Assembly (NCBI RefSeq): GCF_900185725.1
Contig: NZ_FYAU01000024.1
Location: forward strand, 310,001 to 374,000
Direction of reading: 5' to 3'
DNA from: Stappia sp. TSB10P1A
Lineage (GTDB): Bacteria; Pseudomonadota; Alphaproteobacteria; Rhizobiales; Stappiaceae
Length of the DNA stretch: 64,000 nucleotides
In this document: one piece after another, positions 3,001 to 36,868 of the stretch
Position numbering within the stretch: the first letter of the stretch is position 1
Layout: the number at the start of each line of letters is the position of its first letter
Translations under genes and position numbers: made by a program
The notes under the pieces: generated by a model
Database searches by the model: none
The model's input: only the letters and a program-made list of their open reading frames with translations
What the model was told of the DNA's origin: nothing

Positions 3001-3614
3001 ACGATGTGGTGCAGCCGGATGAGCACGTCGTGCCGCTCGGTGCCGACCTTGAACACATGCACCTCGAACGGCGGCCTTGCGCGCAGGTCCATGGGCCGCA
3101 GCATGAGCGCGTCCCGCCGCTCCCTGGAGATCTCGCCTGCGACCGCCGGCGGCCGGTCGGAGAGGTCGGTAATGTCCAGCGACAGCGGGCCGTCGTCGAT
3201 GATCTGGACGGGCCGGCCGTCGCGCTCGCCGAACCGCGTGCGCAAGCTCTCGTGCCGGCCGCGCACCCGCTCGAGCGCCGCGGCGAAGACGGCGGTGTCG
3301 AAGGGACCGGAGATCGTGAAGCCCACCGGGGCGCAATAGGCCGCGCTGTCGGGATCGAGCAGCCACAGGAACCACATCCGCATCTGGCCGCGCGACAGAC
3401 GCAGCGGCGCGCTCCGGTCGACCGCCAGTATCGGCTCGAGCCGGGTGGAGCGCGCCCGGTTGCACCACTCGATCAGTTCGGCCTTGTTGGCCCGCAGCCG
3501 TTCCGTCAGCTCCGGCGTCAAGGCGTTGCGGGGAGCTTCGTACCGGAGCCGTCCGCCATCGGCCCAGATCCGGATCTTCCGCTGTCTGAGGTCCCTGACA
3601 AGGTCTCCGATCAT
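1..3614 (-). CDS. NRPS, docking-C-A-T-C..., C-terminus beyond window
   Basis: The reading frame stays open from the ATG at 3614 to the left edge, about 1,204 codons, so the protein is incomplete. Residues 1-60 look like a TubC-type N-terminal docking domain. A condensation domain follows (about 70-490) with the intact motif HHIVYDG near residue 203. The adenylation domain spans about 520-1010, with YTSGSTGRPKG near 680. The carrier domain has FFESGGTS near 1055, and a second condensation domain starts near 1120 and runs out of the window. The pocket residues I read are D-L-F-N-N-A-L-T-Y, which I recall as a code listed for alanine (tentative). The start overlaps the stop of the upstream A-T gene by one base (TGATG), so the two are translationally coupled. 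The docking domain suggests that it accepts its substrate from another protein, most simply that A-T didomain. Confidence 0.93.
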   Translation of the reverse strand, partial: MIGDLVRDLRQRKIRIWADGGRLRYEAPRNALTPELTERLRANKAELIEWCNRARSTRLEPILAVDRSAPLRLSRGQMRMWFLWLLDPDSAAYCAPVGFTISGPFDTAVFAAALERVRGRHESLRTRFGERDGRPVQIIDDGPLSLDITDLSDRPPAVAGEISRERRDALMLRPMDLRARPPFEVHVFKVGTERHDVLIRLHHIVYDGWSNHLFLTELWTAYSALSQGTEPDLPQLAIQYADFAAWQHERLTGSRRDELLGYWTRHLRGAAATIRLPVRRDGAADGLAEVEAVPIAVAQDTLSRLEALCRETGATMFMLLAAALRVVLARYGGDGDFIIGTPAMRRVHPDVENLIGYFGNTLLLRTPIALSHSYREVLALERETALAAYQHQELPFDMLVEALAPDRSDAGAPLFQVMFLFGEKAPASVSVGPLEIAYLEDAPTGAKSDLGVWIKHAPTGGLSGHFDFAPRRYERRIIEGLARRFHLVLEAMASRPDEAIGATQVLSRQELDQLLRDWNPLFQAADDSLIPEMVRRAAARAPTATAILHGSAAVTYGELDLRARALAERLLALGVSPGDTVLVCLPREPTLVAALLAVMAVGAAYVPVDPAYPQDRRHIVLEDSGARVMICLPDRLPGDVPSDVALLDPSALRSGAPAEWSELSADTGPNDVAWVLYTSGSTGRPKGVEIRHGGAAALVHWARQAYSERELAGVLAGTSVCFDLSVFELFVPLCGGHTVILANSPLDLFDLPGRDRVTLINTVPSVMRTLLAVQGARFPAGLQTVNLAGEPLSTELVNAVQARTGAARVYDLYGPTEATTYATRKLRTGTGPPSIGTPIAGTRAYVLDPSGMPLPPGATGELFLAGETLARGYLGRPDLTAERFAAPAADCIPEARLYRTGDLVHYTGEGELVYVGRCDDQLKIRGYRIEPGEVRMALLAVDGVEDAIVTGSRDDGGNLFLVAYVIGALEAVTARRLRSELAGVLPDFMVPSFFTRVDRFPLTPNGKVDLARLSPDTRRPEPIAAAPQTATEQAIAEIMTELLGREVGRHDHFFESGGTSMSAMLLIGRINARFETQLPLRALFEQPSVEALARLVEHAPRRNSLRPDGSFEAANVPMTLLQRHLWLVHRAAVNPAFLNLWQTMPLSGPLDREAFRKALATVVERHPILSARFPVVETYVRQSYQGTVPTPSELDLCGIADEET

Positions 3615-5464
3615 CAGATGACCCCCTGTTCGGTATCCTGCTCGCGGTCACCGGGCATGTCCGAGATCGCGCGCAGCACGTCGACCTCTTCCGCGATCTT
3701 GCGGATGGTCTGCAACCGGAAGAACCGCTCCAGCGGCAACTCGACGCCCAAGGCATCGCGGATCTTGATGAGGCAGTTCGCCGCCCGGTTCGAATAGCCG
3801 CCGAGATCGAAGAAATTGTCCGTCACGCCGATCGGGCTGACGAGAAGGATCTGCTCCCAGATCGCGCGAATGGCGTCCTCGGTCGGCGTGGCGGGCGCGA
3901 CGCAGGGCGTCGCAAGCGACCGGGCGGTCACCGGATCGGGCAGCGCGCGCCGGTCCAGCTTGCCGTTGGCGGTCGTCGGCAGCGTGTCGAGGAAGCTGAT
4001 CGTCGAGGGGATGAACTCGGCCGGCAGCAGCGTGCCGACATGCTGCCGCAACTCCGCCGCGCTCGCCTCGCTGCCCTTCGCGACGACATAGGCGGACAGC
4101 ACCGTTTCGCCGCCGATGTCGCGCGGGGCGACGGCGCAGGTCCGGACGCCCGGATGGGTCAGCAGCACCGCCTCGACCTCTTCCGGTTCGATCCGGTGGC
4201 CCCGGATCTGCACCTGATTGTCGATCCGGCCGAGCAAGTGGATCGAGCCGTCGGCAAGGCGCCTGGCAAGGTCGCCGGTCCGGTAGACCAGGGCCTCGCC
4301 GAGCCGGGGCATGGCGCGAAACTGCCTCGCGGTCTGGTCCGGGCGCTCGATATACCCCGTCGAGACGCCGTCGCCGGCGATCGCGATCTCGCCCGTCTCG
4401 CCGTCGGCGACAGGCTCGCCCACCGCGTCGAGCAGGTAGACCCTGCGGTTGGACAGCGGCGTTCCGACCGGAACGATCGGCAGGTCGGGCAGCGGCAGCC
4501 GGGCTTCGTGGCACAGCGCGGAATGGGTCTCCGAGCAGCCATACAGGTTCAGCAGGCTGATGCCCGGATAGCGGTCGAGCAGGCGCTGCGCCAGGCTGGT
4601 GTGCAACGGCTCGCCGACGGTGATGATCATCGTCAGCGCGGCGGGAAGCCCGCCGGCGCCGGGCGCGGCATCGAGCAACGCCCGCAGCAGGGTCGGCACG
4701 AGCAGCAGCCGCGTCACCCGTTGCCGCGCAAGGAACGCGATCAGCGCATGGGGATCGCGGCTGGCGTCCTCGGGCGCGAGCGCGACCGGCACGCCGCGCA
4801 GAAGGGCGCCGAACACCTCCCAGACCGAGACGATGAAATTGAGCGTGGTGCGGTGACAGAACCGCTCGTCCGGTCCGAACGGATAGCTCGCCCAGAGCCA
4901 CGACAGCATGACCACCGTCGACCGGTGCGGCGAGGCGACACCCTTCGGTTTGCCGGTGGAGCCGGACGTGTAGACGACGAAACATCCATCGTCGGGCGAA
5001 TTGTCGACGGCAGGGGGCGTGCCGCTGCATTCCGCGATCGCGCCGGCGTCGCGGTCGAGGCAAACGCGATCGACGCCGTCGGGCAGGAGGTGGGCGAAGC
5101 GGGTCGCCGTCACCGCGCACTCGATGGCAGTGTCGCTCGCGATGAAGGCAAGGCGCGCGGGCGGGTAGGTCGGGTCGAGCGGCACATAGGCAGCGCCCGC
5201 CTTCATCACGGCGAGGGCGGCGATGATCGAGTCCGGCGAGCGGGCAAGGCAGATCCCGACCCGTGAGCCCCGCCCAACCCCGCGTGCGGCAAGATGGTTG
5301 GCCAGCCGGTTGGCACGCCGGTCGAGGTCGCGAAAGCTCGTCTGCCCGTCGTCATGCAGCAGCGCAGGGGCATCGGGCGTCGCGACGGCCTGCTGCTCGA
5401 ACAGCCGGTGGAGCGCCTGGTGCGGATAGGCGGCCCTGTCGGCGTGTCCGACATCCTGTGTCAT
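3614..5464 (-). CDS. Stand-alone NRPS A-T didomain, atypical loading module
   Basis: This 616-aa protein has one adenylation domain (about 30-510) and one carrier domain (FFDLGGYS near residue 545) and no condensation domain, as expected of a loading module. The core motifs are present: YTSGSTGKPKG near 167, YRTGD, and NGKLDRRAL at the end of the A domain. The A4 region reads NFIVSVWEVF, so the position normally held by Asp235, which binds the alpha-amino group, is Ile. The A5 motif is NLYGCSETH instead of the usual YGPTE. This points to an acyl, aryl, hydroxy or keto acid, or another substrate without a free alpha-amine. The ATG overlaps the stop of the upstream TrpA-like gene (ATGA), and the stop overlaps the next NRPS start. 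Function as a loader is inferred from the domain order. Confidence 0.93.
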   Translation of the reverse strand: MTQDVGHADRAAYPHQALHRLFEQQAVATPDAPALLHDDGQTSFRDLDRRANRLANHLAARGVGRGSRVGICLARSPDSIIAALAVMKAGAAYVPLDPTYPPARLAFIASDTAIECAVTATRFAHLLPDGVDRVCLDRDAGAIAECSGTPPAVDNSPDDGCFVVYTSGSTGKPKGVASPHRSTVVMLSWLWASYPFGPDERFCHRTTLNFIVSVWEVFGALLRGVPVALAPEDASRDPHALIAFLARQRVTRLLLVPTLLRALLDAAPGAGGLPAALTMIITVGEPLHTSLAQRLLDRYPGISLLNLYGCSETHSALCHEARLPLPDLPIVPVGTPLSNRRVYLLDAVGEPVADGETGEIAIAGDGVSTGYIERPDQTARQFRAMPRLGEALVYRTGDLARRLADGSIHLLGRIDNQVQIRGHRIEPEEVEAVLLTHPGVRTCAVAPRDIGGETVLSAYVVAKGSEASAAELRQHVGTLLPAEFIPSTISFLDTLPTTANGKLDRRALPDPVTARSLATPCVAPATPTEDAIRAIWEQILLVSPIGVTDNFFDLGGYSNRAANCLIKIRDALGVELPLERFFRLQTIRKIAEEVDVLRAISDMPGDREQDTEQGVI

Positions 5465-6231
5465 GCGGTCCCCTCCGCGGCATCGCTCAAGGCGCCGTAA
5501 AAGGCTGCGACCGCATCGACGCCTTGCGTGAAGCGGTCCAGCAGGGCCGTGCCGACGGCGACGGCATCCAGCGTGTCGATGGCGGCCAGCGCGCGAACCT
5601 GGTCCGGCTCGCGGATCCCGAACCCGGCCATGACGAAGAGATCCTCCCGGCAGGCCTTGAGCCGTTCGCTCGCCGCGCGCACCACGCCGGTGCCGACGGC
5701 GGTTCCCGCGGTCGTGTCGGCGCATTTCAGGTAGACGATGGCGCCGGGCGGCGCCGTCCGGCCGATGTCGCCCGCCTTTGCCGCGGACAGGCCGTCGGCC
5801 TCGGCGATGGTCACCAGGCCGATCCCGTGGCGCGCGGCCTCGTCCGCCCAGCAGGTCTGCGTCTCGGGCTCCCATTCCAGCATGATGTGATCGACCGCCC
5901 CCGCCAGCCGCGCCAGCAGCGCCGCGCGCCCCTGGGTCCCGGCGCTGCCCTCGTAGACGACGGCAACGTTCGGCCGGTATCGGGCGGCCACCTGCAGGAC
6001 GGCGCCGAGATCGGCATCGGAGCCGGCGAGAGCCCGTGCGATCGCCTCGTTTGTGCGAAAGGACCACCTGTCGGAGGGAAGGGCGAATTCGAAGGAGGCC
6101 GGCTGCCGGTCGGCAATTCGTTCGAGGGCCTCGCGATAGCCCGCATTGCTCGGCCAGCCCGGCACGGTAAACGGCACCAACCCGAGGCGCGCGCCCGGCA
6201 TCCGCAAGGGGGGCGAGCGGGGGACCATCAT
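5461..6231 (-). CDS. TrpA-like TIM-barrel protein
   Basis: This 256-aa protein resembles the alpha subunit of tryptophan synthase, which cleaves indole-3-glycerol phosphate. Visible matches are an N-terminal GLVPFTVPGWPS segment (compare the TrpA IPFITAGDP start), FEFALPSDR in place of the catalytic-Glu loop, and AGFGIREPDQV near residue 205, the usual phosphate-binding GFGI segment. In my hand alignment the first catalytic acid (Glu49 of TrpA) is kept, but the second (Asp60) is not obvious. There is no trpB beside it. It overlaps the HAD gene upstream and the A-T gene downstream by four bases each, so it belongs to the NRPS operon. A role in making or cleaving an unusual starter acid is inference. 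Confidence 0.8.
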   Translation of the reverse strand: MMVPRSPPLRMPGARLGLVPFTVPGWPSNAGYREALERIADRQPASFEFALPSDRWSFRTNEAIARALAGSDADLGAVLQVAARYRPNVAVVYEGSAGTQGRAALLARLAGAVDHIMLEWEPETQTCWADEAARHGIGLVTIAEADGLSAAKAGDIGRTAPPGAIVYLKCADTTAGTAVGTGVVRAASERLKACREDLFVMAGFGIREPDQVRALAAIDTLDAVAVGTALLDRFTQGVDAVAAFYGALSDAAEGTA

Positions 6232-6908
6232 CCCCGCCCGAGGTCGCCGAGAAGCGCCGGAAGGTCGCGCAGGGTCGCGATCGTCCTGTCGGCCAGCACC
6301 CGGGTGCCCGGCGCAAGATGGGCGCCGCCGACCGCGATGCAGAACGTGCCGGCGGCATGGGCCGACGTGACGCCGGGTTCCGAATCCTCCACCACCAGGA
6401 TGTTGCGCGGATCGGTGCCGAACGCGCGCGCGGCGCTGAGATAGATGTCCGGGGCAGGCTTTGGCCGCGCGACGTCATCCCGACTCAGCGTCAGGTCGAA
6501 AAACCCCGCCAGTTCGAACCGCGCCAGGAAGGCGTCCAACTCGGCGCGGGTTGCGCTGGTCGCGATGCCCAGACGCGAGACACGGCTCCGTACATCTGCC
6601 AGCACCTCATGGACACCGTCGAACAGGCTGCCGTCCTCTTCCCACATGCGGGCGTAGAGGGCCTCCTTTTCGGCATACATGGTCTCCTGACGGGCCGTGC
6701 TCAGTCCGAACTGCCGGGCGATGGCCGGAAAATAGTCTTTCGGGTGCCGGCCGACGACCTGCCGATCGATCTCGGAGCCGAACCGGTATCCATGACTGGC
6801 GAACACTTGTCGCAAAGACTTCAGATTGATGGGTTCTGAATCCGCAAGAACGCCATCCTTGTCAAACACAACGGCGACGATGCCTTCGAGGCTTGAACGC
6901 TGCGTCAT
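6228..6908 (-). CDS. HAD-family phosphatase
   Basis: This is a HAD-superfamily hydrolase of the phosphoglycolate-phosphatase or beta-phosphoglucomutase type, about 226 aa. The nucleophile motif is VVFDKDGVLADSE near the N-terminus. The second motif (Thr/Ser) is probably in LGIATSAT, and the acidic motif is VVEDSEPGV near residue 170. The cap lies between motifs 1 and 2. I chose the ATG at 6908; a TTG at 6920 in the same frame would add MSDL. It is the first gene of the leftward operon, and its stop overlaps the start of the TrpA-like gene (ATGA). It may remove phosphate from an intermediate of a starter unit made together with the TrpA-like protein; nothing in the sequence fixes the substrate. 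Confidence 0.88.
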   Translation of the reverse strand: MTQRSSLEGIVAVVFDKDGVLADSEPINLKSLRQVFASHGYRFGSEIDRQVVGRHPKDYFPAIARQFGLSTARQETMYAEKEALYARMWEEDGSLFDGVHEVLADVRSRVSRLGIATSATRAELDAFLARFELAGFFDLTLSRDDVARPKPAPDIYLSAARAFGTDPRNILVVEDSEPGVTSAHAAGTFCIAVGGAHLAPGTRVLADRTIATLRDLPALLGDLGRG

Positions 6909-7820: not shown

Positions 7821-7873
7821 CGCCGGCGCAGGTGGCTTCAGACCCTTCCGCCCGCGCGCAGTGGAGCGATTCG

Positions 7874-9028: not shown

Positions 9029-9889
9029 TCAATAGACCCGTTCGTACAGCTTGTCCTTCTCTTCGGTCCGCCAGTGCTCGGCCTTGTCCTGCTGCCCCAG
9101 CGCGTCGAAAAACTGCGCCAGCAGCCCGAACGTGGTGCGGTGCCGCAGATCCCAACTGCCGAACAGCGACAGGACGTCCCGCTCCGCTGCGGCCGCATCC
9201 CCCGCCGCCACGGTCTTGCGGAAGCGGGCCTCGATGGCCGCCAGCGACATGTCGTCGAGCACCGGGAACAGCGTCGCCAGCGAGGGGTCGAGCCGCCGCC
9301 GGCCGACGCGGGCGTGAAACCCCTCGGCATCGTCGCAGTCGATGATCAGATGCACCCGGTCCGGGCCGTCGTTGCTGGCGCCATGGGGAATGTCGGTCGC
9401 CAGATGCCAGACGAACCCCGGAGCCAGGTGCACGGCGCCTTCGGCGAAATGCAGCGTGGCCCGGTCGTTGGTGATCAGCGGCACGTGCAGCCGGACCTTG
9501 TCCTGCTGTTGCAGTTCCAGGAAGTCCCGGTGCTCCCACACGCGCGCGCCCGACTCCATCAGGGCGAGCCGGGCCCAACAGACGTTGAGACCGAACCGCG
9601 CCGCTAGGTCGTTGATGATCTGCATGGCGCCCGGCAGATGCGCGGCGAGTTCGGTGGGTCGGCCGGTTCCGTCGCTGATGAGGTGGTCGTCGTGCCGCCC
9701 GGACGGATTGACCAGCACCGCCGAGTGCCAGTGGCCGTCGTTGAAGCCGACATACTGGCTCCGGTAGCCCGCATCGGTTCCGGCCAGCTCGCGGGCGGCG
9801 CGGGCGACCTCACCCAGGTCGACCTCGCCGATTTGGGCGATCTGGCGCACAAGCCTGTCCATCGATGTGTCGGTCGTCGTCTCTTGCAT
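9029..9889 (-). CDS. AspH-type beta-hydroxylase (Fe/2-oxoglutarate)
   Basis: This 286-aa protein belongs to the aspartyl/asparaginyl beta-hydroxylase family. The iron and 2-oxoglutarate site is seen as EHRDFLE near residue 117, RLHVPLITN shortly after, and PHGASNDGPDRVHLIIDCD near 165-183, giving the two His and the Arg. In NRPS clusters this family usually makes beta-hydroxy-aspartate or related beta-hydroxylated residues, on the free amino acid or on a carrier-bound one. A C-terminal stretch of about 80 aa beyond the catalytic core is mostly helical. It is the last gene of the leftward operon that starts with the hydroxylase/piperazate synthase fusion and lies 25 bp after the PhyH gene. The start has AGGTGGGA before it. 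Confidence 0.88.
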   Translation of the reverse strand: MQETTTDTSMDRLVRQIAQIGEVDLGEVARAARELAGTDAGYRSQYVGFNDGHWHSAVLVNPSGRHDDHLISDGTGRPTELAAHLPGAMQIINDLAARFGLNVCWARLALMESGARVWEHRDFLELQQQDKVRLHVPLITNDRATLHFAEGAVHLAPGFVWHLATDIPHGASNDGPDRVHLIIDCDDAEGFHARVGRRRLDPSLATLFPVLDDMSLAAIEARFRKTVAAGDAAAAERDVLSLFGSWDLRHRTTFGLLAQFFDALGQQDKAEHWRTEEKDKLYERVY

Positions 9890-9914: not shown

Positions 9915-10886
9915 TCACCTGTCCCGATCCGGCGCGTCCACCGGGCGACCGTCGCTGCCGATCCAGTGGAATTCGGATCGCAGGCCCTCGTTCAACGTGT
10001 CGTCGACGAACACGCCCGGCAGGAAGATCCGGTCCGGATGGCGGCCGACCGCCGCGGGCCCGATCCAGCGCGGATCGACGACGGCGTCCGATCGCTGCCA
10101 GCGGGAATCCACCGAGACACGCAGGAAGTCCGTGGTGTTGTCCAGCGCCCCATGCAGCATGAACAGGCCGAAGATGACGACGTCGCCCATCCGGTACGAC
10201 GTCGTCCGCCAGGGTCCGCAAGCGTCCTGCCGGATCCCGTCGAGACGGTCGGCATACCAGCCGAAATTCGCGTCGGCATCGGCGTCGAGAACGCCGTATT
10301 CGGTCCTGTAGAGCTGGCAGTCCTGCGAACCGTCGAGCAGAACCAGCCCGCCCTGGTGCGGATCGATGTCGCCGAGCGGGGTCCAGACGGACATGACCGC
10401 CTCCGGGGCCGGTCCGCGCAGGAAGGGGGCGTCCTGATGCAGTCCGCTGCCGCTTCCCTTGCCCATCACCCGGGGCCAAATGAAGTCCCAGGGCCGGACG
10501 GGTCCGTCCAGCAGGGCGCCGATCACCTGGCCGATCCGCTCGGACCGGACGACCTGCTGAAGGGCATCGCTGCGCAGGATCGCGCGCCGCGCCGCGCGAA
10601 CGTTGATGTCAGCCCTGTTGGAGCGGTGCGAGGCCCGGCCCTCCGCCAGCGGATAGCGGTCGTCGACCTCGCCCATGATGGCGTGAACGCTCAGGATGTC
10701 CTCCCTGGCGCGGCGCACCAGATCCGGGGACAGCAGCCCGCGCACAAACACATAGCCATGGGTGCCGAAGACGGCGCGCAGCTCGTCCGTGCCGGCGTCC
10801 GCCGGCGTTTCCAGAAGCGGCTCGAAGTGCCGCGACATCCCGCCAATCGGACGGCCGCAAAACTGTGCGGCGCTCACGGATTGCAT
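9915..10886 (-). CDS. PhyH-family Fe/2-oxoglutarate dioxygenase
   Basis: This 323-aa protein is a phytanoyl-CoA dioxygenase-like enzyme. The metal site is seen as GLHQDAPF (His and Asp) near residue 150 and MLHGALDN (second His) near 245, followed by LRVSVDSRWQ, which carries the Arg expected to hold 2-oxoglutarate. Relatives in NRPS clusters hydroxylate amino acid side chains such as proline or ornithine, so it could act on ornithine, piperazate or another monomer. It is 42 bp after the MbtH gene and 25 bp before the AspH gene, all in one leftward operon. AAGGAGAG lies before the ATG. Which of the two dioxygenases acts on which residue cannot be told from sequence. Confidence 0.9.
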   Translation of the reverse strand: MQSVSAAQFCGRPIGGMSRHFEPLLETPADAGTDELRAVFGTHGYVFVRGLLSPDLVRRAREDILSVHAIMGEVDDRYPLAEGRASHRSNRADINVRAARRAILRSDALQQVVRSERIGQVIGALLDGPVRPWDFIWPRVMGKGSGSGLHQDAPFLRGPAPEAVMSVWTPLGDIDPHQGGLVLLDGSQDCQLYRTEYGVLDADADANFGWYADRLDGIRQDACGPWRTTSYRMGDVVIFGLFMLHGALDNTTDFLRVSVDSRWQRSDAVVDPRWIGPAAVGRHPDRIFLPGVFVDDTLNEGLRSEFHWIGSDGRPVDAPDRDR

Positions 10887-10928: not shown

Positions 10929-11147
10929 TCAGGCGCCGTCCATGGCCCGGCGCAGGCTTGCCGGGCGCATGTCCGTCCACAGCGTCTCGATCCTCGCGAG
11001 GCAGTCGGACTTGGTCCCCGGCTCTCCGACCGTTTCCCATCCAGCCGGGACCGGGCGTCCGACAACCCAGATGGAATACTGCTCCTCATGGTTGCGCACG
11101 ATGTAGTACTGCTCGTCGCTTTCGGCGTCATCGTCTGTCGCGGTCAT
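10929..11147 (-). CDS. MbtH-like NRPS accessory protein
   Basis: This 72-aa protein carries the MbtH signature: RNHEEQYSIW, then PAGWETVG, then a C-terminal SDCLARIETLWTDMRP. MbtH proteins bind adenylation domains and help them fold and work. The ATG overlaps the stop of the fusion gene upstream (the four bases at 11144-11147), so expression is coupled. It is the only MbtH gene visible in the window and presumably serves several of the eight adenylation domains. Confidence 0.96.
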   Translation of the reverse strand: MTATDDDAESDEQYYIVRNHEEQYSIWVVGRPVPAGWETVGEPGTKSDCLARIETLWTDMRPASLRRAMDGA

Positions 11148-13147
11148 TGCTCCCTCCCTGGAAATTGGCCCATCGAAGGCATCGGTTGCTGCATGCCGGC
11201 CGACCGGGGCGCCGAGGACAGGTCCATACCGGCGATCTTCTCGATCAGGTCGCGGTCGCGGGCGCGGGCGTGGCGCAGCATTTCGGACACCGCGCGCTGT
11301 CGGTCGGCCGCGTCCCTGTCCTGGGACAGCTTGAAGCGGCCGATCATGTGGTCGATCTCGATTTCGAAGCCGACGATGAAATCGATGAGCTGGTCTATCC
11401 GCGGGTCGTCGGCGGCCAGCCGGTAGCTTGCATCCCCCGGATCGGCCCGCTCGCAAATGCTCTGCAGGCCCTGGACCAGCGTGTCTCTGTCTTCGATCGG
11501 CCGGACCCGTCCCCGCACCTGAACCGAAATCGAGTTCCAGGTCGGAAGTTGATGCGACCCGTAGACGTGAGGCGAGATGTAGCAGTCCGGGCCGTGAAAG
11601 ACGGCCAGCACCTTCCGGCCGTCCAGCAGCGCGGCCTGGGGGTTGGAGCGGTCCATGTGGCCGAAGAGAATGCCTCTGGTCCCGCGCCGCCGGTCGAGGA
11701 TCAGCGGCAACTGGGTCACCAGCGCATCGTCCCTGTCCCGTGCCGATATCAGGGTCGCGAAGGGATTGCGCTCGATAAGGGCGAATTGCCGGTCTTCGTC
11801 ATGGTCGACATGACGGCGCGGCGGATAGGCCGGCTCGGCCACCGCCGGACGCGGCAACGGCTCCGCCGGCCGGTGGGCGAGGATGTCCTCGACGATCTCG
11901 GCGGAGCGGAACGGCAGCAGCGACAGCAGCGTATCGCCGGGCCCGTGGCTGGCTTCGTTGAATCCCTGCAGATAGACGCCGCAGGACAGCGCCTCGCGGG
12001 CGAGGGCGCGATAGTGCCGCGACACCGCGACGCCGCCGTCTTCGCGCTGCTTGAGCAGACGCAGCACCGGGCCGAAAACCTCCGGATCGAGACGGCGTGT
12101 GAAGCCGGTCGCCAGCACGAGGACATCGCAGGTCATGTCGGCGGCCTGACCGGACACCCTGTCGACAAGGGTCAGCCGCACCTGCTCGCCGTCCTCGCGC
12201 GCGGCCGTCAGCCGCGTGAACGGGCGGATCTGCAACCGGGTCCGGCCGCGCATCTCCGACGCATAGGCGATCCGATAGATCTCCTCCAGCAGGTCGGGAT
12301 CGACGACGCCGTAATTCGCGTTGCGGACGTCCTGCAGGATGGCGTGCCGGCGCGCTTCGTCGGCCCCGTAAAATGTGTCGAGTTCGGACGACCCGTAGAC
12401 CTCGTTCAGGAAGACCGAACTGTCGGCCGGGCGCAGCGAGTATCCCGAGACGCATACCTGCACATCCGCTCTGCGATAGGTCTGCAGCAGCGCGAGCACG
12501 ACTTCGCCGCTGCTTTGTCCGTCGCCGACGACGACGAAGCGCAGCGGCGCCTCCGGATCCGGGGCCGTGTCGCCGAGACGGGACAGCACCTCGCCGGCAT
12601 GCAGGATCCGCCCGCCGATCTCGCATCCGGCCGGGATCCGCGGCGCGCCGCCGGTCGCGATGACGATGTTGCGCGCCAGGAACCGGCTGGGCGCCCCGCT
12701 GCCGGCCGCCTGCGCGCGGATTTCGAAATGGTCCGGCGCTGAGCCGGGCCCCGGCCTTACCGACACGACTCTCGTCCCGTAGCGCACATCCGCCCCGCAC
12801 CGCTCGGCCGCCCAGCGCAGGTAGTCCTGATACTCCTCCCGGGTCGGGTGAAAGCTGCGCAGATTGACGAACCGCTCCAGGCGGCCGCAATCGCGGACGT
12901 AGTTCAGGAAACTGAAGGGGCTCGAGGGATTCCTCAAGGTGACGAGATCCTTGAGAAAGGAAATCTGCACGTTGGAGCGGTCGAACATCATGTTCGCGTG
13001 CCAGCAAAACTCTGGGTTGCGCTCCAGAAAAACTCCGTCGAGATGAGGCGCGAGTTCGCGGGCCGCGACGGCAAAGGAAAGGTTGGAAGGCCCGAAACCC
13101 AGGCCCACAAAATCAAAAAACTCTTCGGCAACCTTCGCAGACGTCAA
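11144..13147 (-). CDS. Fused ornithine N5-hydroxylase and piperazate synthase-like protein
   Basis: This 667-aa protein has two parts. Residues 1-435 are a flavin N-monooxygenase of the PvdA/KtzI/IucD family: FAD motif GLGFGPSNLS near 15, NADPH motif VVVGDGQSSGE near 205, and LATGF near 340. Residues 441-650 match the PaiB-like fold (YPPRRHVD, ERNPFATLIS, FGHMDRSNPQ, FHGPDCYISP, LPTWNSISVQVRG). KtzT, the haem enzyme that turns N5-hydroxyornithine into piperazate, belongs to this PaiB-like group. His497 in the GHM motif sits at position 57 of the domain, near the axial haem His I recall for KtzT. The start is a TTG at 13147 with AGGAGGGG before it. It heads the operon with mbtH, PhyH and AspH genes. 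An unrelated regulator fusion is unlikely. Confidence 0.85.
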   Translation of the reverse strand: MTSAKVAEEFFDFVGLGFGPSNLSFAVAARELAPHLDGVFLERNPEFCWHANMMFDRSNVQISFLKDLVTLRNPSSPFSFLNYVRDCGRLERFVNLRSFHPTREEYQDYLRWAAERCGADVRYGTRVVSVRPGPGSAPDHFEIRAQAAGSGAPSRFLARNIVIATGGAPRIPAGCEIGGRILHAGEVLSRLGDTAPDPEAPLRFVVVGDGQSSGEVVLALLQTYRRADVQVCVSGYSLRPADSSVFLNEVYGSSELDTFYGADEARRHAILQDVRNANYGVVDPDLLEEIYRIAYASEMRGRTRLQIRPFTRLTAAREDGEQVRLTLVDRVSGQAADMTCDVLVLATGFTRRLDPEVFGPVLRLLKQREDGGVAVSRHYRALAREALSCGVYLQGFNEASHGPGDTLLSLLPFRSAEIVEDILAHRPAEPLPRPAVAEPAYPPRRHVDHDEDRQFALIERNPFATLISARDRDDALVTQLPLILDRRRGTRGILFGHMDRSNPQAALLDGRKVLAVFHGPDCYISPHVYGSHQLPTWNSISVQVRGRVRPIEDRDTLVQGLQSICERADPGDASYRLAADDPRIDQLIDFIVGFEIEIDHMIGRFKLSQDRDAADRQRAVSEMLRHARARDRDLIEKIAGMDLSSAPRSAGMQQPMPSMGQFPGREQ

Positions 13148-13498: not shown

Positions 13499-16400
13499 GT
13501 GGCGCGCAAGCCGCGAATTGGAGCGACGTCCGTGCTCGATTGGGACCCCGTGCTCGATTTGGAAGATGAGGCTCGTTCCGACCCCCGTCTCGCAGGCCCC
13601 GCAGGTGCGAAGGGGGGCTCGTTTGCGGGCTGGTTCGAATGGAGGGCGGCAGCCACGCCGGACGCGACCGCGCTCGTGACCGACGAGGCCAGTCTGACGT
13701 TCGACGAGATGAACCGCGCGGCCAACCGGCTGGCTCATTGTTTGCGGTCCATGGGCGCCGGGCCGGACGTGGTGGTCGCTGTCAGCGCCGGCCGGTCGGC
13801 CTGGACGCTCCTTGCCGTCCTCGGCATCTGGAAAGCAGGCGGCGCCTTCGTTCCGATCGAGCCGGGGCACCCGGCCAGCCGGACCCGTCACGTTCTTGCC
13901 GAAACCGGCGCCCTGCTGCTGCTCGCGGATGCCGCCGGAGGAGCCGCTTTCGCGGACATGCTCTCGGACATGGACGTGCCGCTGATGCTGGTTGGCGACG
14001 AGACCCTTGCGGACTGGCCGGACGCCGATCCGGAGCCGTTGGCCGGGCCCGACGCCCTCGCCTATTGCATCTACACCTCCGGGACGACGGGGGTGCCGAA
14101 AGGTGTCGCGGTCAGTCACCGCTCGCTGCTGAGCCATGCCCGTTTCATGTGCGGCCATCTTCACCTGCGGCCGGCCGACCGGTTTCTTCACATGACGCCG
14201 CTGTCGATCGACGCGGCGCTGGAGGAACTGCTGCCGGCCTGGATCGCCGGTGCGACCGTCGTGCTGCCGGGCAAGGTGCCGATGCCCGGCCCCGCGCTTC
14301 GCGAGGCGCTCGACGCCTATCGGATCAGCGTCGCCAGCATGGCCTCCTCGCTCTGGCATCGCTGGGTCGACAGCGAAACCGCCGGACTGGAGAACGGGTG
14401 CGGGCCGCGCGACAAGCCGCGCGACCTGCGCCTCGTCTTCACTGGCGGGGAGACGGCCTTCGGCGAAAAGCTGCGCCAGTGGCGGGCGCTGGGCTGGACC
14501 CGCGATGTCGACTGGGTGATCGACTACGGTCCGACCGAAGCGACGATCACCTGCGCCACCTATCGCCCGCCTGCGATGGTCGACGACGACATCGTGCCGA
14601 TCGGCCATCCGATCGACGGCGCGGCGATCCATCTGCTGGACGAGCGCATGGACCCCGTCGGCGACGACACGGTGGGGGAGATCTGGATCGGCGGAGTGCC
14701 GCCCGCGCGCGGCTATGTCAAGCGGCCGGCGCTGACGGCCGAGGCCTTCCGCCCCGATCCGTGGGGACCGCCGGGCAGCCGCATGTACCGGACGGGCGAC
14801 CATGGGCTGCGATCCGCCGACGGCGTCCTGCATTTCCGCGGCCGCCGGGACGAGCAGGTCAAGATCCTCGGGCACCGGGTGGAGCTGGGTGCCATCGAAA
14901 GCTGCCTTGTCAGGTGCGACGGGGTTCGCGAAGCGGCCGCGGCGCTGCACGACCCCACCTCCGCCGATCCGCTGCTGGTCGGATATCTGATCGGCGAGGC
15001 GCCGGACCCGGACAGGGTGCGGGCGCAACTGCGCGACTGGCTGCCGCAGATCATGATCCCGGCCGAACTGATCGTGCTCGATGCCCTGCCCCGGGGGGCG
15101 GTCAGCGGCAAGCTCGACCGCAAGCGCCTGCCGCATCCGGACAGCCTCCAGGATCGGCCTGAAGCTGACGAACCGCCGCATGCGGTGATCGCCCGCCAAT
15201 GGGCAAACGTCCTCGGCCTGCCTCCGGGGAGCGATGACGACGACTTTTTCCTCAGTGGCGGCGATTCGCTCAAGGCCGTGCAGCTCATCGGGCGCTTGCG
15301 CGCCGACCTTGCGGTCGACCTCTCCCTTTCCGACCTGTTCGCCCGGCCGACGCCGCGCGGCCTTGCGGCGGCGGTCGACGCGCGGCGGGCGGCGACGGAC
15401 ACCCGACCCGCCGAGGTGCCCGACGCGGCGGCGCTCCGAACCGGCCTCGCCCCGGCGTCGAACGGACAGCGGCGCCTGTGGTTCCTGTCGGACTACGCGA
15501 AGGGCTCGCCGGCCTATTCCGTGCCGCTCGGCTTCCGGGTGCGCGGCGCGTTCGCGATCGCCGATCTCGACCGCGCCCTCACCGCGCTGACGGCGCGCCA
15601 CGAGGCCTTGCGAACGGCGCTGGCGATGCGGGACGGCCGCCTGATGCAGGAGATCGCGCCGCCGCTGGAGATTGCGAGCAAGGTGCTTGAGGCGGCCGGC
15701 TGGGACGCGGCGATGGCGATGGCCGAGGCGGAGGTCCGCCTGCCCTTCGATCTGGGAACGCCGCCGCTCATGCGATCGCTGTGCATCCGCTACGCGCCGG
15801 AGGCGTGGCTGTGGGTGCTCAACATCCACCATGCGGTGTGCGATGCCTGGTCGCACGGCCTGCTGCTGCGCGACCTGCAGGCGGCGTGGACGGGGGAGAC
15901 CGCCGGACCCGCCGCTCCGCAATTCGCGGACCATGTGGCACGGTTCGAGGCCTTGCGCGCCTCGCCCGCCTTCGACGGCCACCGGAACTACTGGAGGCGG
16001 CAGCTTGCCGGCGATCTCCCGGTGCTTGCGCTGAACCACGGCGCGAGCACCCGCCGCGACCTCTCCGATGCCGGCGGCGTCGCGGACCTGTCGATGGACG
16101 AGGCCCTGGCGGCGCAGGTGGAGGCCGCCGCGGCCGGCCACGGAACCACGGTTCCCGTCGTCCTGCTGTCGGCCTTCGCCGCCACCTTGCACCGGTGGAC
16201 CCTTCAGGACCGGATCGTGATCGGTGTCCCCGCCGCCTGCCGCATGTCGCCCGCCGACCAGGCCACGGTCGGCTATTTCGCCAACACGCTTCCGATCGTC
16301 GTCGATGCCGGCCGGCAGCGCTCGTTCGGCGATCTGGTGGCGCATGTCGCCGGGCGCATGTCGGAAGCGCTGGCGCATCAGGACCTGCCGTTCGACGAGA

Positions 16401-18595
16401 TCGTCGACCTTCTCGACCTGCCCGGCCGATCGAGCCGCAATCCGCTGTTCCAGGCGATGTTCGTCATGCAGTCGACGCCGGCGGATTTCGGCTTCGCTCC
16501 GCCCGGCGCCCGGCTGGAGGAGGTGCTCGTCCATACCGGAACGGCGAAGGTCGACCTCTCCTGCATGCTGCGCCTCACGGAGGGCACCGTTCGCGGAGAG
16601 CTCGAATATGCGACCGACGTCCTCGACGCGGCGGAGGCCGATCTCCTGCGGGGGCATTTCCTCGGCCTGTTGCGGGCGGCAACGCACGCGCCGACCCGCC
16701 CGCTGGACGCGCTGGCGCTGAGCACCGGTGCGGAGCGGGACACGCGCCTTCGCGCCATCAACGCGGACCATGCGGTCTATCCGGACCTGCGCCCGATCCA
16801 CCGCTACATCGAAGAGCAGGCCGACCGCACGCCCGATGCCATCGCGGCGGAAACCCTGTCGGAGCGGATGACCTATGGCGAGCTGGAGGCGCGCGCCAAC
16901 CGTGTGGCGAATGCCCTCGCGGCTGCCGGTATCGGCCCGGAAGACCTGGTCGGCGTCTGCCTCGACCGTTCGCTCGCGCTGATCGTCGCCCTTCTCGGCG
17001 TGCTGAAGGCCGGGGCCGGGTTCGTGCCGCTGTCGCCCGGCTATCCGCTCGCCCGCACGCGGAAAATCCTCCTCGACGCGGGCGTCGAGCATCTGATCGT
17101 CGATGCCGCGAACCGGGGCCGGCTGGCCCTGCCGGGCCTGCGCCTTTGGAGCGAAGACTTGCTCCGTTCCACGGTCGGGGAGGCGCGCGGCAGCGTTCCC
17201 GCCCGTCCTGATCACCTTGCCTGCGCCTATTACACCTCCGGCTCCACCGGCGAGCCGAAAGGCGTCCTGCTCGACCATCGATGCGTCATGGGCCGCATCG
17301 CATGGCTTCGGGACCGCTATCCGCTTCAGGAGGGCGACCGGGTCCTGCACAAGACGCCGCTGGTGTTCGACGTGGCGATCTGGGAGATCTTCGGTCCCCT
17401 GATGTCCGGAGCGACCGTCCTTGCCGCCGATCCGGGCGGCGAAGCCGATGTCGATCACATCCGCGCGCTGCTGGCCCGGCCCGGCACGGTCTTTGCCCAT
17501 TTCGTGCCGTCCATGCTGGATGCGGTCCTGAGCGCCGGCGGCTGGGACGAGGCTCCCGACCTGAAATGGGTGCAGGTGTCCGGCGAGGGCCTGTCGGCGG
17601 ACCTGCTCGCGCGCTACCGGGCGCGGGTCCCGATCCCGCTGCACAACTGCTATGGCCAGACCGAAACGTCCGAAGTGGCCTACTGGCAGGACGACGCGCG
17701 CAGCTACCGGCTGTGGGCGCCGATCGGCCGCCAGATCGGGCTCTACCGGGTCTTCCTGCTGGACCGGTCGCTGCAGCCGGTGGAACCGGGCATGCCCGGC
17801 GAGATCTGCGTCGCGGGTGTCGGCGGACTGGCGCGCGGCTATCGGGCGCGCGCGGGCCTGACCGCCGAGAAATTCGTTCCCCACCCCTGGCCGATCGAAC
17901 CGGGGGAGCGGCTTTATCGCACCGGCGATCTGGGACGCGTCACATCGACAGGAGCGCTGGAGTATCTCGGCCGGCTCGACGAGCAGGTCAAGATCCGCGG
18001 CTGCCGGGTCGAGATCGCGGAAGTGGAGCAGGTGCTGCGCGGCTTGCGCGGGGTCGCTGCCTGCGCTGTTATCGCCCGGCAGGACGCGTCCGGATCCGAT
18101 CAGTTGATCGCCTATGTCCAGGGCGACGGCCTGACCCCTGCGGGGCTCGGGGCGCAGGCCGAGTTCCTGTTGCCCAGCTACATGCTGCCGGCGGCCTATG
18201 TCGTGCTCGACCGGCTGCCGCTGACGGCGAGCGGCAAGCTCGACCGCCTGTCGCTGCCGCCGCCCGGTCCGGATCATTTCGCCTCCCGCGGCGGCTCGGC
18301 GCCGCCCGCATCGCCGCTGGAATGCGAGATCGCAGCCGTCTGGCGCGAGGTTCTGAACCTGCCCGGCGTTGGCCGGCGGGATACCTTCTTTTCCATCGGC
18401 GGCAATTCGCTCACCGCCATCCAGGTGATCGCCCGACTGAAAACCCGGTTCGCGGTGCGCATCTCGGTACGCGATTTCTTCGCCGAGCCGACCGTCGAAG
18501 GGCTGGCGAGGCTGGTGGAGGCCGGGCTGATCGATCGGGTGGCCGCCCTGTCCGAGGACGAGGCACGGCAGATGCTCGAAGGCTTGCGGTTATGA
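13499..18595 (+). CDS. NRPS, A-T-C-A-T
   Basis: This protein of about 1,698 aa begins with an adenylation domain (about 45-545; YTSGTTGVPKG near 190) and a carrier domain (FFLSGGDSL near 585). A condensation domain (about 647-1085), a second adenylation domain (1097-1590; YTSGSTGEPKG near 1245) and a second carrier domain (FFSIGGNSL near 1630) follow. Having no condensation domain at the front, it could load a starter. The pocket residues I read are D-A-E-S-F-G-D-I-T for the first A domain and D-V-W-H-Q-S-C-E-V for the second; I cannot assign either, though the second has the D-V-W-H start seen in serine codes. The condensation motif is HHAVCDA, with Ala for the usual Gly. A GTG at 13532 with GGAG before it may be the true start. 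The stop overlaps the next gene (ATGA). Confidence 0.95.
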   Translation: MARKPRIGATSVLDWDPVLDLEDEARSDPRLAGPAGAKGGSFAGWFEWRAAATPDATALVTDEASLTFDEMNRAANRLAHCLRSMGAGPDVVVAVSAGRSAWTLLAVLGIWKAGGAFVPIEPGHPASRTRHVLAETGALLLLADAAGGAAFADMLSDMDVPLMLVGDETLADWPDADPEPLAGPDALAYCIYTSGTTGVPKGVAVSHRSLLSHARFMCGHLHLRPADRFLHMTPLSIDAALEELLPAWIAGATVVLPGKVPMPGPALREALDAYRISVASMASSLWHRWVDSETAGLENGCGPRDKPRDLRLVFTGGETAFGEKLRQWRALGWTRDVDWVIDYGPTEATITCATYRPPAMVDDDIVPIGHPIDGAAIHLLDERMDPVGDDTVGEIWIGGVPPARGYVKRPALTAEAFRPDPWGPPGSRMYRTGDHGLRSADGVLHFRGRRDEQVKILGHRVELGAIESCLVRCDGVREAAAALHDPTSADPLLVGYLIGEAPDPDRVRAQLRDWLPQIMIPAELIVLDALPRGAVSGKLDRKRLPHPDSLQDRPEADEPPHAVIARQWANVLGLPPGSDDDDFFLSGGDSLKAVQLIGRLRADLAVDLSLSDLFARPTPRGLAAAVDARRAATDTRPAEVPDAAALRTGLAPASNGQRRLWFLSDYAKGSPAYSVPLGFRVRGAFAIADLDRALTALTARHEALRTALAMRDGRLMQEIAPPLEIASKVLEAAGWDAAMAMAEAEVRLPFDLGTPPLMRSLCIRYAPEAWLWVLNIHHAVCDAWSHGLLLRDLQAAWTGETAGPAAPQFADHVARFEALRASPAFDGHRNYWRRQLAGDLPVLALNHGASTRRDLSDAGGVADLSMDEALAAQVEAAAAGHGTTVPVVLLSAFAATLHRWTLQDRIVIGVPAACRMSPADQATVGYFANTLPIVVDAGRQRSFGDLVAHVAGRMSEALAHQDLPFDEIVDLLDLPGRSSRNPLFQAMFVMQSTPADFGFAPPGARLEEVLVHTGTAKVDLSCMLRLTEGTVRGELEYATDVLDAAEADLLRGHFLGLLRAATHAPTRPLDALALSTGAERDTRLRAINADHAVYPDLRPIHRYIEEQADRTPDAIAAETLSERMTYGELEARANRVANALAAAGIGPEDLVGVCLDRSLALIVALLGVLKAGAGFVPLSPGYPLARTRKILLDAGVEHLIVDAANRGRLALPGLRLWSEDLLRSTVGEARGSVPARPDHLACAYYTSGSTGEPKGVLLDHRCVMGRIAWLRDRYPLQEGDRVLHKTPLVFDVAIWEIFGPLMSGATVLAADPGGEADVDHIRALLARPGTVFAHFVPSMLDAVLSAGGWDEAPDLKWVQVSGEGLSADLLARYRARVPIPLHNCYGQTETSEVAYWQDDARSYRLWAPIGRQIGLYRVFLLDRSLQPVEPGMPGEICVAGVGGLARGYRARAGLTAEKFVPHPWPIEPGERLYRTGDLGRVTSTGALEYLGRLDEQVKIRGCRVEIAEVEQVLRGLRGVAACAVIARQDASGSDQLIAYVQGDGLTPAGLGAQAEFLLPSYMLPAAYVVLDRLPLTASGKLDRLSLPPPGPDHFASRGGSAPPASPLECEIAAVWREVLNLPGVGRRDTFFSIGGNSLTAIQVIARLKTRFAVRISVRDFFAEPTVEGLARLVEAGLIDRVAALSEDEARQMLEGLRL

Positions 18596-21500
18596 GCGAA
18601 GCGGGAGCCGGACGCGCCGACCTGGGTCCCGCGCAGCGGCAATTGCTCGAGCGTTTGATGACGCATCGGGACATTGGCGCCCCCCCGGCGGCGGCGGAGA
18701 TCCCGCGCAGCGACACCGTTCGCGACATTCCGCTGTTGCCCAACCAGTCCGGCGTCTGGTTCCAGAGCCGCATTTTTCCGGACAGTCCGGAATACAACCA
18801 GATCGGCATCCTCCGGCTGCCCTCCTGTCCGTCGGACGAGGCCGTGCGGGACGCGCTGCGCACCCTGATGCAGCGTCACGATGCCCTGCGCCTGCGGATC
18901 TACGAAAAGGACGGGGAACCGCTGCAGGAACTGTGCGAGGACGTCCCCTGCCCGTTGCGCTGGCACGACGCCGGCATGCTGTCTCCCGGCGAGGCCGAAG
19001 CCAGGATCGAGGTCATCGGCAACAGGTGCTACCGGGAACCGTTCGACCTGGCGACGGCGCCGCTCTACCGCATGGACGTGGTGCGCATGCCGGGCGGGGC
19101 GGCCGTCGCCTTCCTGGTGTTTCACCATATCGCCGTCGACGGCCATTCGCTGGAAACGCTGTATGGCGACCTGCTGACGCTTCTGGCCGGCGACGCGCCC
19201 GGCCCCGCACCGGCCGTCCGCTTCATCGACTATGCCGCCCATGCGGGCCGGCGGGCCGACGGGGCGGATCCCAAGGAGCAACTGTCCTATTGGCGGACCA
19301 AGCTGCGCGGCGAGCTTCCGGTCCTCGATCTTCCCTCCGACCGTCCGCGTCCCCCCGTGCCCAGCCGACGCGGCCATGTGGTTCCCTGCCGGATCGCCCC
19401 CGAGGGCCTGCGGCCGCTGAAGGCGCTGGCCGAGGCGGAAAACACCACCCTCTTCGTTGTCCTGGCGGCGGTCTACAAGACGTTCCTGCGGCGCGTGTCG
19501 GGCGCGACCGACATGCTGGTCGGAACCGCGCTGTCCGGGCGCGATCATCCCGCTGTCGAGACGATGGTCGGCATGTTCGTCAATACGGTGGTGCTGCGCA
19601 GCGATCTTGCCGGCAATCCGCGTTTCCGCAGCCTCCTGCGCCAGGTGCGAACCACCGTTCTGGAAGCGCACGATAACGGCACGGTTCCCTTCGGGTCCGT
19701 TGTCGCGGCGCTGAACCTGCCGAGGGATGCAAGCATCAGCCCCCTGTTCCAGACCATGTTCAGCGTCGGCGGCCTGCCGGCCACCCCTGACGGCAGGCTG
19801 GACACCGCCGCGGCCTTCGCCGATTCCGAGGCCGCGAAATGGGACCTGTCGCTGTTCCTGGACGAGCGCGACGGGGGAATGGTCGGATCTCTGGAATATT
19901 CGGCCGATCTCTTCGACAGGGCGACGGCGGAACGCTTCGTGTCGATGTTCGCGCGGCTCGCGGCCGCCTTCGCGCGGGATCCCGATCTGCCCATCCTGGA
20001 CGCGCCGCTGCTGTCCGCGCGGGACGAGGCGCATCTCCTTCACGCGTTCGAGCCCTACATGCGGCCCGGCAGTCCCTACCGCACCCTGGCGCAACCGTTC
20101 GAAGAGCAGGTCCGGCGCTCGCCGGATGCCGTCGCGCTGGTCGGCGAGCGCGGCCAGCAGACCTATGGCGAGCTGAATGCCGCTGCCAACAGGCTCGCCT
20201 GGCATCTTCTCGCCAAAGGCGCCGGCCCCGGCTGCTACATTGCCGTGTGCATGACTGTCGGCTTCGATCTGGTCATGGCGCTCCTGGCCGTCGCAAAGAC
20301 CGGAGCCGCCTATGTCCCGCTCGATCCCGCTCTGCCCGGCGAACGGATCCGCGTCCTGCTGGAGGACACCGCGCCGCTGCTGGTGCTGGCCGACAGTGCG
20401 ACCGCACCGCTCGTCGCCTCGGCCTCCTGCGCGGTTCACGTCGTCGGCGGCACCGAGGCCTCCGACGACCGGTCCCCTAACGACTGGTCCCCTAACGACT
20501 GGCCCCCCGGCGATCCGCCATGCATGGCGCCGGCGGGACGGCCGGTCCATATCCTGTTCACCTCGGGCTCCACCGGACGGCCGAAGGGTGTGGTCTATTC
20601 GGTCGAAGCGGCGCTGGCCGAAATCCTGTGGCTGCACGGGCGCTATCCGCTGACCTCGGGCGGGGCGAACCTGTTCAAGACCTCCTACGGGTTTGACGTC
20701 TCGATCTGGGAGATCTTCTGGACGCTCTATTTCGGCGCCCGGCTGGTGGTTCCGAAGCCCGGCGAAAACTGCGACCCGAAGCGGCTGGTCGCGCTGATCG
20801 ACCAACACGCCGTCACGCAGATCTTCCTGGTGCCGGGCATGCTGGAACTGATGCTGGACGTCCTGCCGGACGGATCCTGCCGCAGCCTCGCCTGCGTCCT
20901 GTGCGGCGGCGCCCCGGTCAGCCCCCGTCTGCGCGACCGCTTCTACGAAAAACTGCCGCAGGCCCTGCTCGTCAACTGCTTCGGGCCGACCGAATGCGGA
21001 ACCGTGACGGACTGTCCCCTGCCCAATACGTCGGGGACCGACTATGTGCCGCTTGGTCATCCGGCGGCGAATTTCACCTGCTACGTGCTCGATCCGTCGG
21101 GGCGCCTGTGCCCGCTCGGCGTGCCCGGCGAGCTTTACATCGGCGGCGAGGTCGGTCTTGCGCTCGGGTATCACCGCCGGCCGGGCCTGACCGCCGAGCG
21201 GTTCCTGCCCGATCCGTTCGGGCCGCCGGGGCAGCGCATGTACCGCACCGGAGACCTGTGCCGGCGGCGCGGCGACGGCACTCTCGAACATCTCGGACGC
21301 ATCGACCGGCAGGTCAAGCTGCGCGGCATGCGGGTCGAACTGGCGGAGATCGAGGCGGTGTTGTGCGAGCACCCGGCCGTGGCGCAGTGCCATGTCCTGG
21401 TGCGCAACGATCCGCGAACCGGACCCCGGATCCCGGCTTTCGTGACGCTGAGGGAGAGGGCGCAGGCGACGCCGGACGTCCTGCTTGCCCATGCGCGCCG

Positions 21501-22632: not shown

Positions 22633-22643
22633 AAGGAGGCCGT

Positions 22644-36858: not shown

Positions 36859-36868
36859 GGAGGCGGCG

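Follow-up and report, generated by a model that had tools for sequence, protein, structure and literature searches.

A fused N-hydroxylase and piperazate-synthase-like protein in a nonribosomal peptide cluster of Stappia sp. TSB10P1A

The 64,000-nucleotide stretch of the Stappia sp. TSB10P1A genome analysed here (contig NZ_FYAU01000024.1, positions 310,001 to 374,000; hereafter the window) carries a gene for a single protein that joins a flavin-dependent ornithine N5-hydroxylase to a haem domain with the fold of a piperazate synthase (PZS). Proteins of this design are called chimeras below. The window protein probably converts ornithine, or gamma-hydroxyornithine, into a piperazate or piperazate-type building block within one chain. 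The observations made here are of architecture, homology, haem-pocket residues, the co-occurrence and co-location of an adenylation domain of a nonribosomal peptide synthetase (NRPS), and one case of natural replacement. Piperazate lends stiffness to many bioactive peptides, and only a few enzymes join two nitrogens. The points of interest are a possible second wiring of the rare N-N forming site and its spread beyond the actinobacteria. Statements that carry a PMC number refer to excerpts of the papers concerned.

The fused gene and its relatives

The gene and its parts are as follows.
11144..13147, minus strand: fused ornithine N5-hydroxylase / piperazate-synthase-like protein, 667 amino acids, a single open frame with a TTG start
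11858..13147, minus strand: N-terminal flavin N-hydroxylase half, residues 1-430 (Pfam, alignment)
11228..11827, minus strand: C-terminal PaiB/PZS-fold haem domain, residues 441-640 (Pfam, tree, predicted structure)
11657..11659, minus strand: codon of His497, the residue that aligns with the haem-ligating His in KtzT-type synthases

An AGGAGG box stops 7 bases ahead of the TTG, and the stop of the gene shares ATGA with the start of an MbtH gene. Pfam places PF13434 (Lys_Orn_oxgnase) at residues 10-350 (E 1.4e-98) and PF04299 (FMN_bind_2) at residues 441-599 (E 3.8e-37), both far over the curated cut-offs, so that the chimera architecture, one open reading frame (ORF) with PF13434 followed by PF04299, is present. 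A preliminary description of this DNA had proposed that one protein joins the two halves and that MbtH and NRPS genes lie beside it. Both proposals hold, the neighbours being the overlapping MbtH gene and a plus-strand NRPS operon. The protein is the sole PF04299 match in its own genome at E <= 0.001. In the hydroxylase half, K66, N248, N278 and S409, which we take to line up with the ornithine-binding residues of SidA, do not change among the 7 chimeras aligned. This half scores similarly against MbtG (lysine), PvdA (ornithine) and KtzI (ornithine). For the whole chain AlphaFold gives a weak model (predicted local distance difference test, pLDDT, 70; predicted template modelling score, pTM, 0.51; 6 rows), from which neither the domain arrangement nor the channelling of N5-hydroxyornithine that the preliminary description suggested can be read. 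Residues 641-667 form a low-confidence tail, and the second domain ends at about residue 640.

A tblastn search of a plasmid collection found one single-ORF relative across both halves, in Streptomyces sp. NBC_01237 (46% identity), and a single-protein scan of genome contigs gave no match. Scanning named genomes with a two-row C-terminal alignment returned 22 loci, five of which are chimeras: Streptomyces TSRI0281, NRRL B-1347 and SolWspMP-5a-2, a Mycobacterium metagenome-assembled genome (MAG), and Pseudoalteromonas luteoviolacea NCIMB 1942. These five and the NBC_01237 chimera are 40-49% identical to the window protein. A direct search found the chimera in 6 of 348 Streptomyces genomes. Judged by sequence, the fused gene is neither a chance frame nor a mis-joined one, because single-ORF homologues in other organisms align across both halves. 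Ten chimera N-terminal halves form a clade of their own (support 100/98) apart from KtzI, and the C-terminal halves fall within one clade (99/94) shared with flavobacterial and Mycetohabitans proteins (nine chimeras alone, 72/63). Both trees thus point to a common ancestry of the window protein with the actinobacterial chimeras. Matches over both halves were absent from the other genomes searched in the family (86), the class (384) and a phylum sample (397); these samples overlap, and the class and phylum searches were cut at E 1e-60 and 1e-80, with 3 candidates scored per genome. Because of this absence the fused gene looks laterally acquired in its own lineage. The nearest kin of the C-terminal half are stand-alone flavobacterial proteins (L046-L054), and no N-hydroxylase was found in the fetched loci of any of the nine.

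On plasmid pBRH01 of Mycetohabitans rhizoxinica (L037:18550-21999), three genes stand in succession, for a diaminobutyrate transaminase, an N-hydroxylase and a PZS-like protein that belongs to the clade of the chimera. It is conceivable that this trio yields a diaminobutyrate-derived hydrazine or imine.

The fusion itself is not new, because reviews describe actinobacterial chimeras (PMC7347517, PMC11705231), which bears out the remark in the preliminary description that fused forms had been noted elsewhere. The 2020 review reports 11 KtzI-KtzT chimeras with their own position-specific residue pattern, from the bioinformatics of Hu et al. 2019, and states that every piperazate product known at that time was of actinomycete origin (PMC7347517). 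The 2024 review credits chimeras with piperazate formation both in actinobacteria and, starting from ornithine, in vitro (PMC11705231). Nor are KtzT-like genes new to proteobacteria, homologues having been reported in a few proteobacterial genomes (PMC10888640). Like the chimeras of Hu et al., the window protein holds two enzymes in one chain, belongs to an NRPS cluster and departs from the residue pattern of stand-alone synthases; its host is probably proteobacterial instead, and the likeness is drawn through the reviews rather than through sequences. The preliminary description had placed the novelty in the host and the cluster. The literature searched, seen in excerpts, makes no mention of a proteobacterial chimera, and the matches listed include no alphaproteobacterial piperazate cluster. 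New here are the C-terminal lineage with its missing KtzT letters, the replacement described below, the rare shared adenylation domain, and the presence of an amidinotransferase and GntB-like hydroxylases in the cluster.

The haem domain and its replacement in one Streptomyces

The AlphaFold model of the C-terminal domain is of good quality (pLDDT 91, pTM 0.86; 23 rows). Compared with PaiB-haem, PipS, NohD, SbPZS, LnzB and KtzT, it gives similar scores throughout (template modelling score by query 0.74-0.84, Z 18.6-20.2). The domain is therefore predicted to have the fold of the solved synthases, as the preliminary description expected of a comparison with KtzT and PipS. His497, which that description named as the haem ligand, aligns with the haem ligand of the solved synthases (His61 of SbPZS). 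In SbPZS numbering, T38, H61, N66, T102 and K173 are kept in all 9 intact chimeras tabulated, and the haem-binding His and the Thr-Lys dyad of KtzT-type synthases are present in the window protein. The residues flanking the (F)KLSQ motif are M and E in KtzT-type proteins (PMC10888640). The window protein reads R-FKLSQ-D, and SbPZS also has D. NohD, an N-hydroxylamine dehydratase deposited in the PDB (9oqs and variants), has been changed towards PZS letters in the variants A59N, V96A, R144Y and D172E, going by the PDB titles. At these positions the window protein has D, L, R (beside a one-residue gap) and D; SbPZS, a shown piperazate maker, likewise has D at the NohD 172 position, where the PZS letter is E. 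No relevant paper on NohD or N-hydroxylamine dehydratases was among the literature matches listed.

The maximum-likelihood tree places the C-terminal half outside the KtzT lineage. The chimeras, the stand-alone flavobacterial proteins and the Mycetohabitans protein, which sits on a long branch, form the 99/94 clade, apart from the KtzT-type synthases, which group with NohD (100/99). PaiB stands beside the chimera clade weakly (89/77), and its place is unresolved in the tree without two long branches. Chimeras, PZS and NohD as a single clade gave p 0.063, or 0.031 without the two long branches. The C-terminus of the Streptomyces G1037 chimera was left out of all C-terminal trees, and locus L072, which has no usable frame, was left out of the C-terminal set. 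The preliminary description's claim of a KtzT-like C-terminal half is thus upheld for the haem-pocket residues and fails for kinship: the domain groups with flavobacterial PaiB-like proteins, and Tyr150, Asn63 and Ala100 are absent. Of the two marks by which that description would have known a mere regulator, grouping away from KtzT was found and loss of the haem pocket was not.

Set against the known proteins, the chimera shares fold, haem His, Thr-Lys dyad and proposed two-step chemistry with the pair of KtzI and a synthase of the KtzT, PipS, SbPZS or LnzB kind. These are separate proteins, however, and both chimera halves lie in clades apart from KtzI and KtzT. With NohD the chimera has fold, haem, and Arg and Asp at two positions in common, although NohD is a stand-alone protein and a sister of the KtzT-type synthases. 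PaiB (2ol5, 9vyc) is the nearest solved sequence to the chimera domain. It has the same His/Asn/Thr/Lys set and binds haem, but it is a stand-alone regulator reported to form no N-N bond (PMC13274692), whereas the window domain is fused to an N-hydroxylase beside NRPS genes.

A natural replacement bears on the function of the domain. In the chimera of Streptomyces G1037 (L118:1013-2854), V takes the place of H61, and the alignment sets A against T102 and H against K173; the YISP stretch is gone from its C-terminal half, and the Pfam match is reduced to 26 bits over 75 residues. The same NRPS cluster holds a separate synthase of 233 amino acids (L119:1015-1716), 18 kb from the chimera. This synthase falls within the KtzT-type clade, is 51% identical to SbPZS and has H61, N63, A100, T102, Y150, K173 and E177. 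The simplest reading of these sequences is that a true synthase replaced the decayed domain of the chimera. Because the decayed chimera is paired with a KtzT-type synthase, the intact chimera domain would perform the same N-N step elsewhere. A side observation beside the G1037 cluster is a Family 2B encapsulin shell gene with a terpene-cyclase cargo gene (L119:12523-15539).

A shared adenylation domain and the proposed function

Most of the clusters that hold chimeras have an adenylation (A) domain in common, with the core YGQ[TS]ET.E and the code DVWH[QAS]S.EVK (DVIHQSAELK in NRRL B-1347). Its clade has a support of 1.000 (FastTree). In the window it is the second A domain, A2, of the first NRPS gene, whose thiolation (T) and condensation (C) domains are also given.
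13499..18595, plus strand: NRPS A1-T-C-A2-T (domain search)
17651..17674, plus strand: YGQTETSE signature of A2, code DVWHQSCEVK, the A domain common to other chimera clusters

Of 289 genomes in the class of the window, the window's own is the one that carries the DNA signature of this domain. The signature was found in five of the six other chimera genomes or records first tested, the Mycobacterium MAG being without it, and the 3 plasmid records in which the enzyme pair is separate also lack it. In genome G833 it lies on a different contig from the chimera. Twelve of 392 Streptomyces genomes carry the signature. The chimera is present in 6 of these 12 and in 0 of 66 signature-negative genomes (Fisher p 3.6e-6; the signature and chimera samples are overlapping draws from one genus), at a distance of 4-24 kb from the signature. 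All six chimeras among the 348 directly searched Streptomyces genomes are in signature-positive genomes. The signature alone was rejected as proof of a chimera, since the other six positive genomes have none. Stretches were fetched from four of these six. Three of the four (G1022, G879, G1039) show no A domain of the shared clade there despite the signature. The fourth, G1184, has a true shared A domain, but within its fetched stretch the match to the hydroxylase half is limited to 26 residues (L120:6210-6287).

The canonical piperazate codes are DVFSVAAYAK and its kin (PMC9866976). As a positive control, the canonical code was recovered twice among the 6 A domains of a classic piperazate cluster. 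It was found in none of the 3 A domains read in G1037, where a further, poorly matching A domain stands outside the count, and in none of the 5 of a Rhodococcus cluster with a separate enzyme pair. The Rhodococcus result shows that the canonical code is not universal. The sequences leave two options for DV[WI]H.S.E[VL]K: either another piperazate code, or one suited to a piperazate that has been changed. The polar pocket of A2, with its Glu at position 330, would suggest a fit to a hydroxylated ring. The code strings read here had no match in the literature searched.

The reading that we favour is as follows. The flavin half would put a hydroxyl group on N5 of ornithine with NADPH and O2. The haem domain, its haem held by His497, would then expel water and join the alpha nitrogen to N5, giving piperazate. 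The amidinotransferase at 34651-35775 probably frees the ornithine from arginine. GntB-like hydroxylases may act earlier, in which case the substrate would be gamma-hydroxyornithine and the product 5-hydroxypiperazate. A2 would load the product amino acid, which would be built into the peptide with the help of MbtH. Here we infer the substrate, the product, its hydroxylation and its loading; piperazate formation by chimeras of broadly this design is taken from the reviews. An amidinotransferase and an FA_desaturase-family protein accompany the chimera in three clusters, those of the window, P. luteoviolacea and G1037. Because the three genes co-occur, this suggests for these clusters a route from arginine through gamma-hydroxyarginine and gamma-hydroxyornithine to 5-hydroxypiperazate.

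Several findings weigh against a piperazate-forming chimera. The window domain is only about 28% identical to KtzT, and two homologues at 34% and 25% did not accept N5-hydroxyornithine (PMC12150314). It lacks the KtzT-type N63 (D in the window), A100 (L) and Y150 (a gap beside Arg), and in PipS the counterpart of the last, Tyr155, contacts the substrate carboxylate (PMC13274692). A Rhodococcus pair protein within the KtzT-type clade has H at position 150 as aligned. None of the four NohD positions carries the PZS letter in the chimera. PaiB shares His, Asn, Thr and Lys without N-N activity, and therefore these residues do not prove function. A single clade of chimeras and KtzT-type synthases is rejected by the approximately unbiased test (p 0.007; 4.7e-7 without the two long branches, Mycetohabitans and P. 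luteoviolacea, which were left out of that reduced set only). The replacement case is one genome. The canonical code occurs in none of 41 A-domain rows read from chimera-bearing loci, some of which overlap and one of which lies on another contig than its chimera. Outside the three clusters just named, the chimera stretches fetched (L036, L041-L043, L045 and L115-L117) yielded no amidinotransferase, and an FA_desaturase-family protein is likewise absent from them.

The main rival holds that the C-terminal half is an N-hydroxylamine dehydratase, which would take N5-hydroxyornithine through an imine to glutamate-5-semialdehyde or pyrroline-5-carboxylate and form no N-N bond. NohD has the same fold and was crystallised with N-hydroxylated ornithine, the chimera's R and D match its R144 and D172 where the PZS letters N, A, Y and E are absent, and PipS itself dehydrates non-native hydroxylamines (PMC11705231). 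However, NohD groups with the KtzT-type synthases and not with the chimeras, SbPZS makes piperazate with D at the E position, the decayed domain of G1037 is paired with a KtzT-type synthase and not with NohD, and the reviews report piperazate from chimeras (PMC7347517, PMC11705231). We regard a dehydratase as unlikely. Rather less probable still is the same N-N chemistry on another substrate, for example diaminobutyrate, giving pyrazolidine-3-carboxylate, or lysine. The serine-like code of A2 hints at a small polar substrate, and the hydroxylase half does not separate lysine from ornithine enzymes by score. KtzT converts N4-hydroxy-diaminobutyrate to 5-aza-proline (PMC11705231), and the unfused Mycetohabitans pair stands directly behind a diaminobutyrate transaminase, although on a long branch. 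In the window, however, the ornithine source lies within the cluster, and the class-III aminotransferase lies about 5 kb past the last assigned cluster gene; among the best 25 of its 69 NCBIfam matches none reaches the cut-off and none is a diaminobutyrate transaminase.

The least credible reading makes the C-terminal half a haem sensor of the PaiB kind or a domain that has lost its function, and leaves the protein just an N-hydroxylase, for instance for a siderophore. PaiB is the best sequence match of the domain among solved chains (E 2.5e-32), the nine flavobacterial relatives have no N-hydroxylase nearby, and the domain has decayed in G1037. Yet 9 of the 10 tabulated chimeras, from actinobacteria as well as proteobacteria, retain the residues of the haem pocket, and the cluster in which the domain decayed has a KtzT-type synthase. 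The conversion of ornithine to piperazate in one chain, which the preliminary description had proposed, therefore remains the best-supported function, on the strength of the G1037 replacement and of the reviews on actinobacterial chimeras.

A broader proposal is more doubtful than this function, though it may merit attention. The PaiB split-barrel family may have evolved haem-dependent N-N bond formation on two occasions, in the KtzT-type synthases and, out of flavobacterial or PaiB-like stock, in the chimera lineage, where Arg would act in place of Tyr150; the chimera lineage would have its own code, DV[WI]H.S.E[VL]K, tuned to 5-hydroxypiperazate made from arginine by way of a GntB-like hydroxylase and the amidinotransferase. 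If chimeras make piperazate, they offer another active site for this reaction, with a wiring of its own, and a ready one-chain catalyst, and the fused gene together with the DV[WI]H.S.E[VL]K domain would be a marker for such clusters outside the actinobacteria.

The surrounding gene cluster

The fused gene is followed on its strand by genes for MbtH, a PhyH dioxygenase and a prolyl-4-hydroxylase-like dioxygenase, and this group faces the plus-strand NRPS operon. Besides the NRPS gene given above, the cluster contains these features (TE, thioesterase).
10929..11147, minus strand: MbtH protein (Pfam), ATGA overlap with the fused gene
9915..10886, minus strand: PhyH-family 2-oxoglutarate dioxygenase (Pfam)
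9029..9889, minus strand: Asp/Arg-hydroxylase family, prolyl-4-hydroxylase-like dioxygenase; nearest solved relative L-proline cis-4-hydroxylase, E 1.2e-14
18592..22632, plus strand: NRPS C-A3-T-TE, A3 code DVWFLGCTVK; open frame from 17281, start position provisional
22644..29216, plus strand: NRPS TubC_N-C-A-T-C-A-T, both codes DLFNNALTYK (domain search, code reading)
29242..32466, plus strand: NRPS C-A-T, code DAWFLGHVVK (domain search, code reading)
32577..33281, plus strand: thioesterase (domain search)
33315..34511, minus strand: cytochrome P450 (domain search)
34651..35775, plus strand: arginine:X amidinotransferase of the SxtG/HsvA/AGAT family, E 2e-112 to SxtG
35890..36858, plus strand: FA_desaturase-family protein; in P. 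luteoviolacea and G1037 a homologue stands immediately upstream of the fused gene
36854..37885, plus strand: second FA_desaturase-family protein, resembling GntB, an L-arginine gamma-hydroxylase (240 bits, short of the cut-off, 380)
3614..6478, minus strand: NRPS A-T gene with an unusual adenylation code (domain search, code reading)
3..3614, minus strand: NRPS TubC_N-C-A-T-C..., continuing past the window edge (domain search)

The amidinotransferase is the likely ornithine source by homology, and its homologues in two other chimera clusters are 49% and 62% identical. The dioxygenase at 9029..9889 has weak homologues (27-29%) in the stretches from P. luteoviolacea and G1037. A gene of the dimethylargininase family (445 bits against a cut-off of 300) belongs to the Streptomyces NBC_01237 cluster. 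Three minus-strand frames, 13334-18277, 18274-22542 and 22413-27413, were rejected as genes, having no domain and lying where the NRPS genes are on the plus strand. The ORF at 7838-8929 on the minus strand was rejected too; no family exceeds its cut-off and the base pattern is that of a shadow frame.

In the A domain of 3614-6478 (minus strand), whose code is IVWLIVLSAK, another residue stands in place of the Asp that contacts the alpha-amino group. By its code this domain may load a non-amino acid or be inactive. The best plasmid matches of the flanking genes are to Paracoccus (67%, two genes) and to Azospirillum/Cupriavidus (54-55%), which is consistent with the alphaproteobacterial host named in the preliminary description, though not proof of it. 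A search of the genome for 16S gave no match. Adjoining the NRPS cluster, at 39404-47319, is a cassette of genes for a RuBisCO-like protein, an SBD_N/NBD_C protein, the class-III aminotransferase and a DctPQM transporter, which looks catabolic and unrelated to the cluster. At 51258-52835 on the plus strand, a single ORF combines DUF5996 with a GCN5-type acetyltransferase domain.

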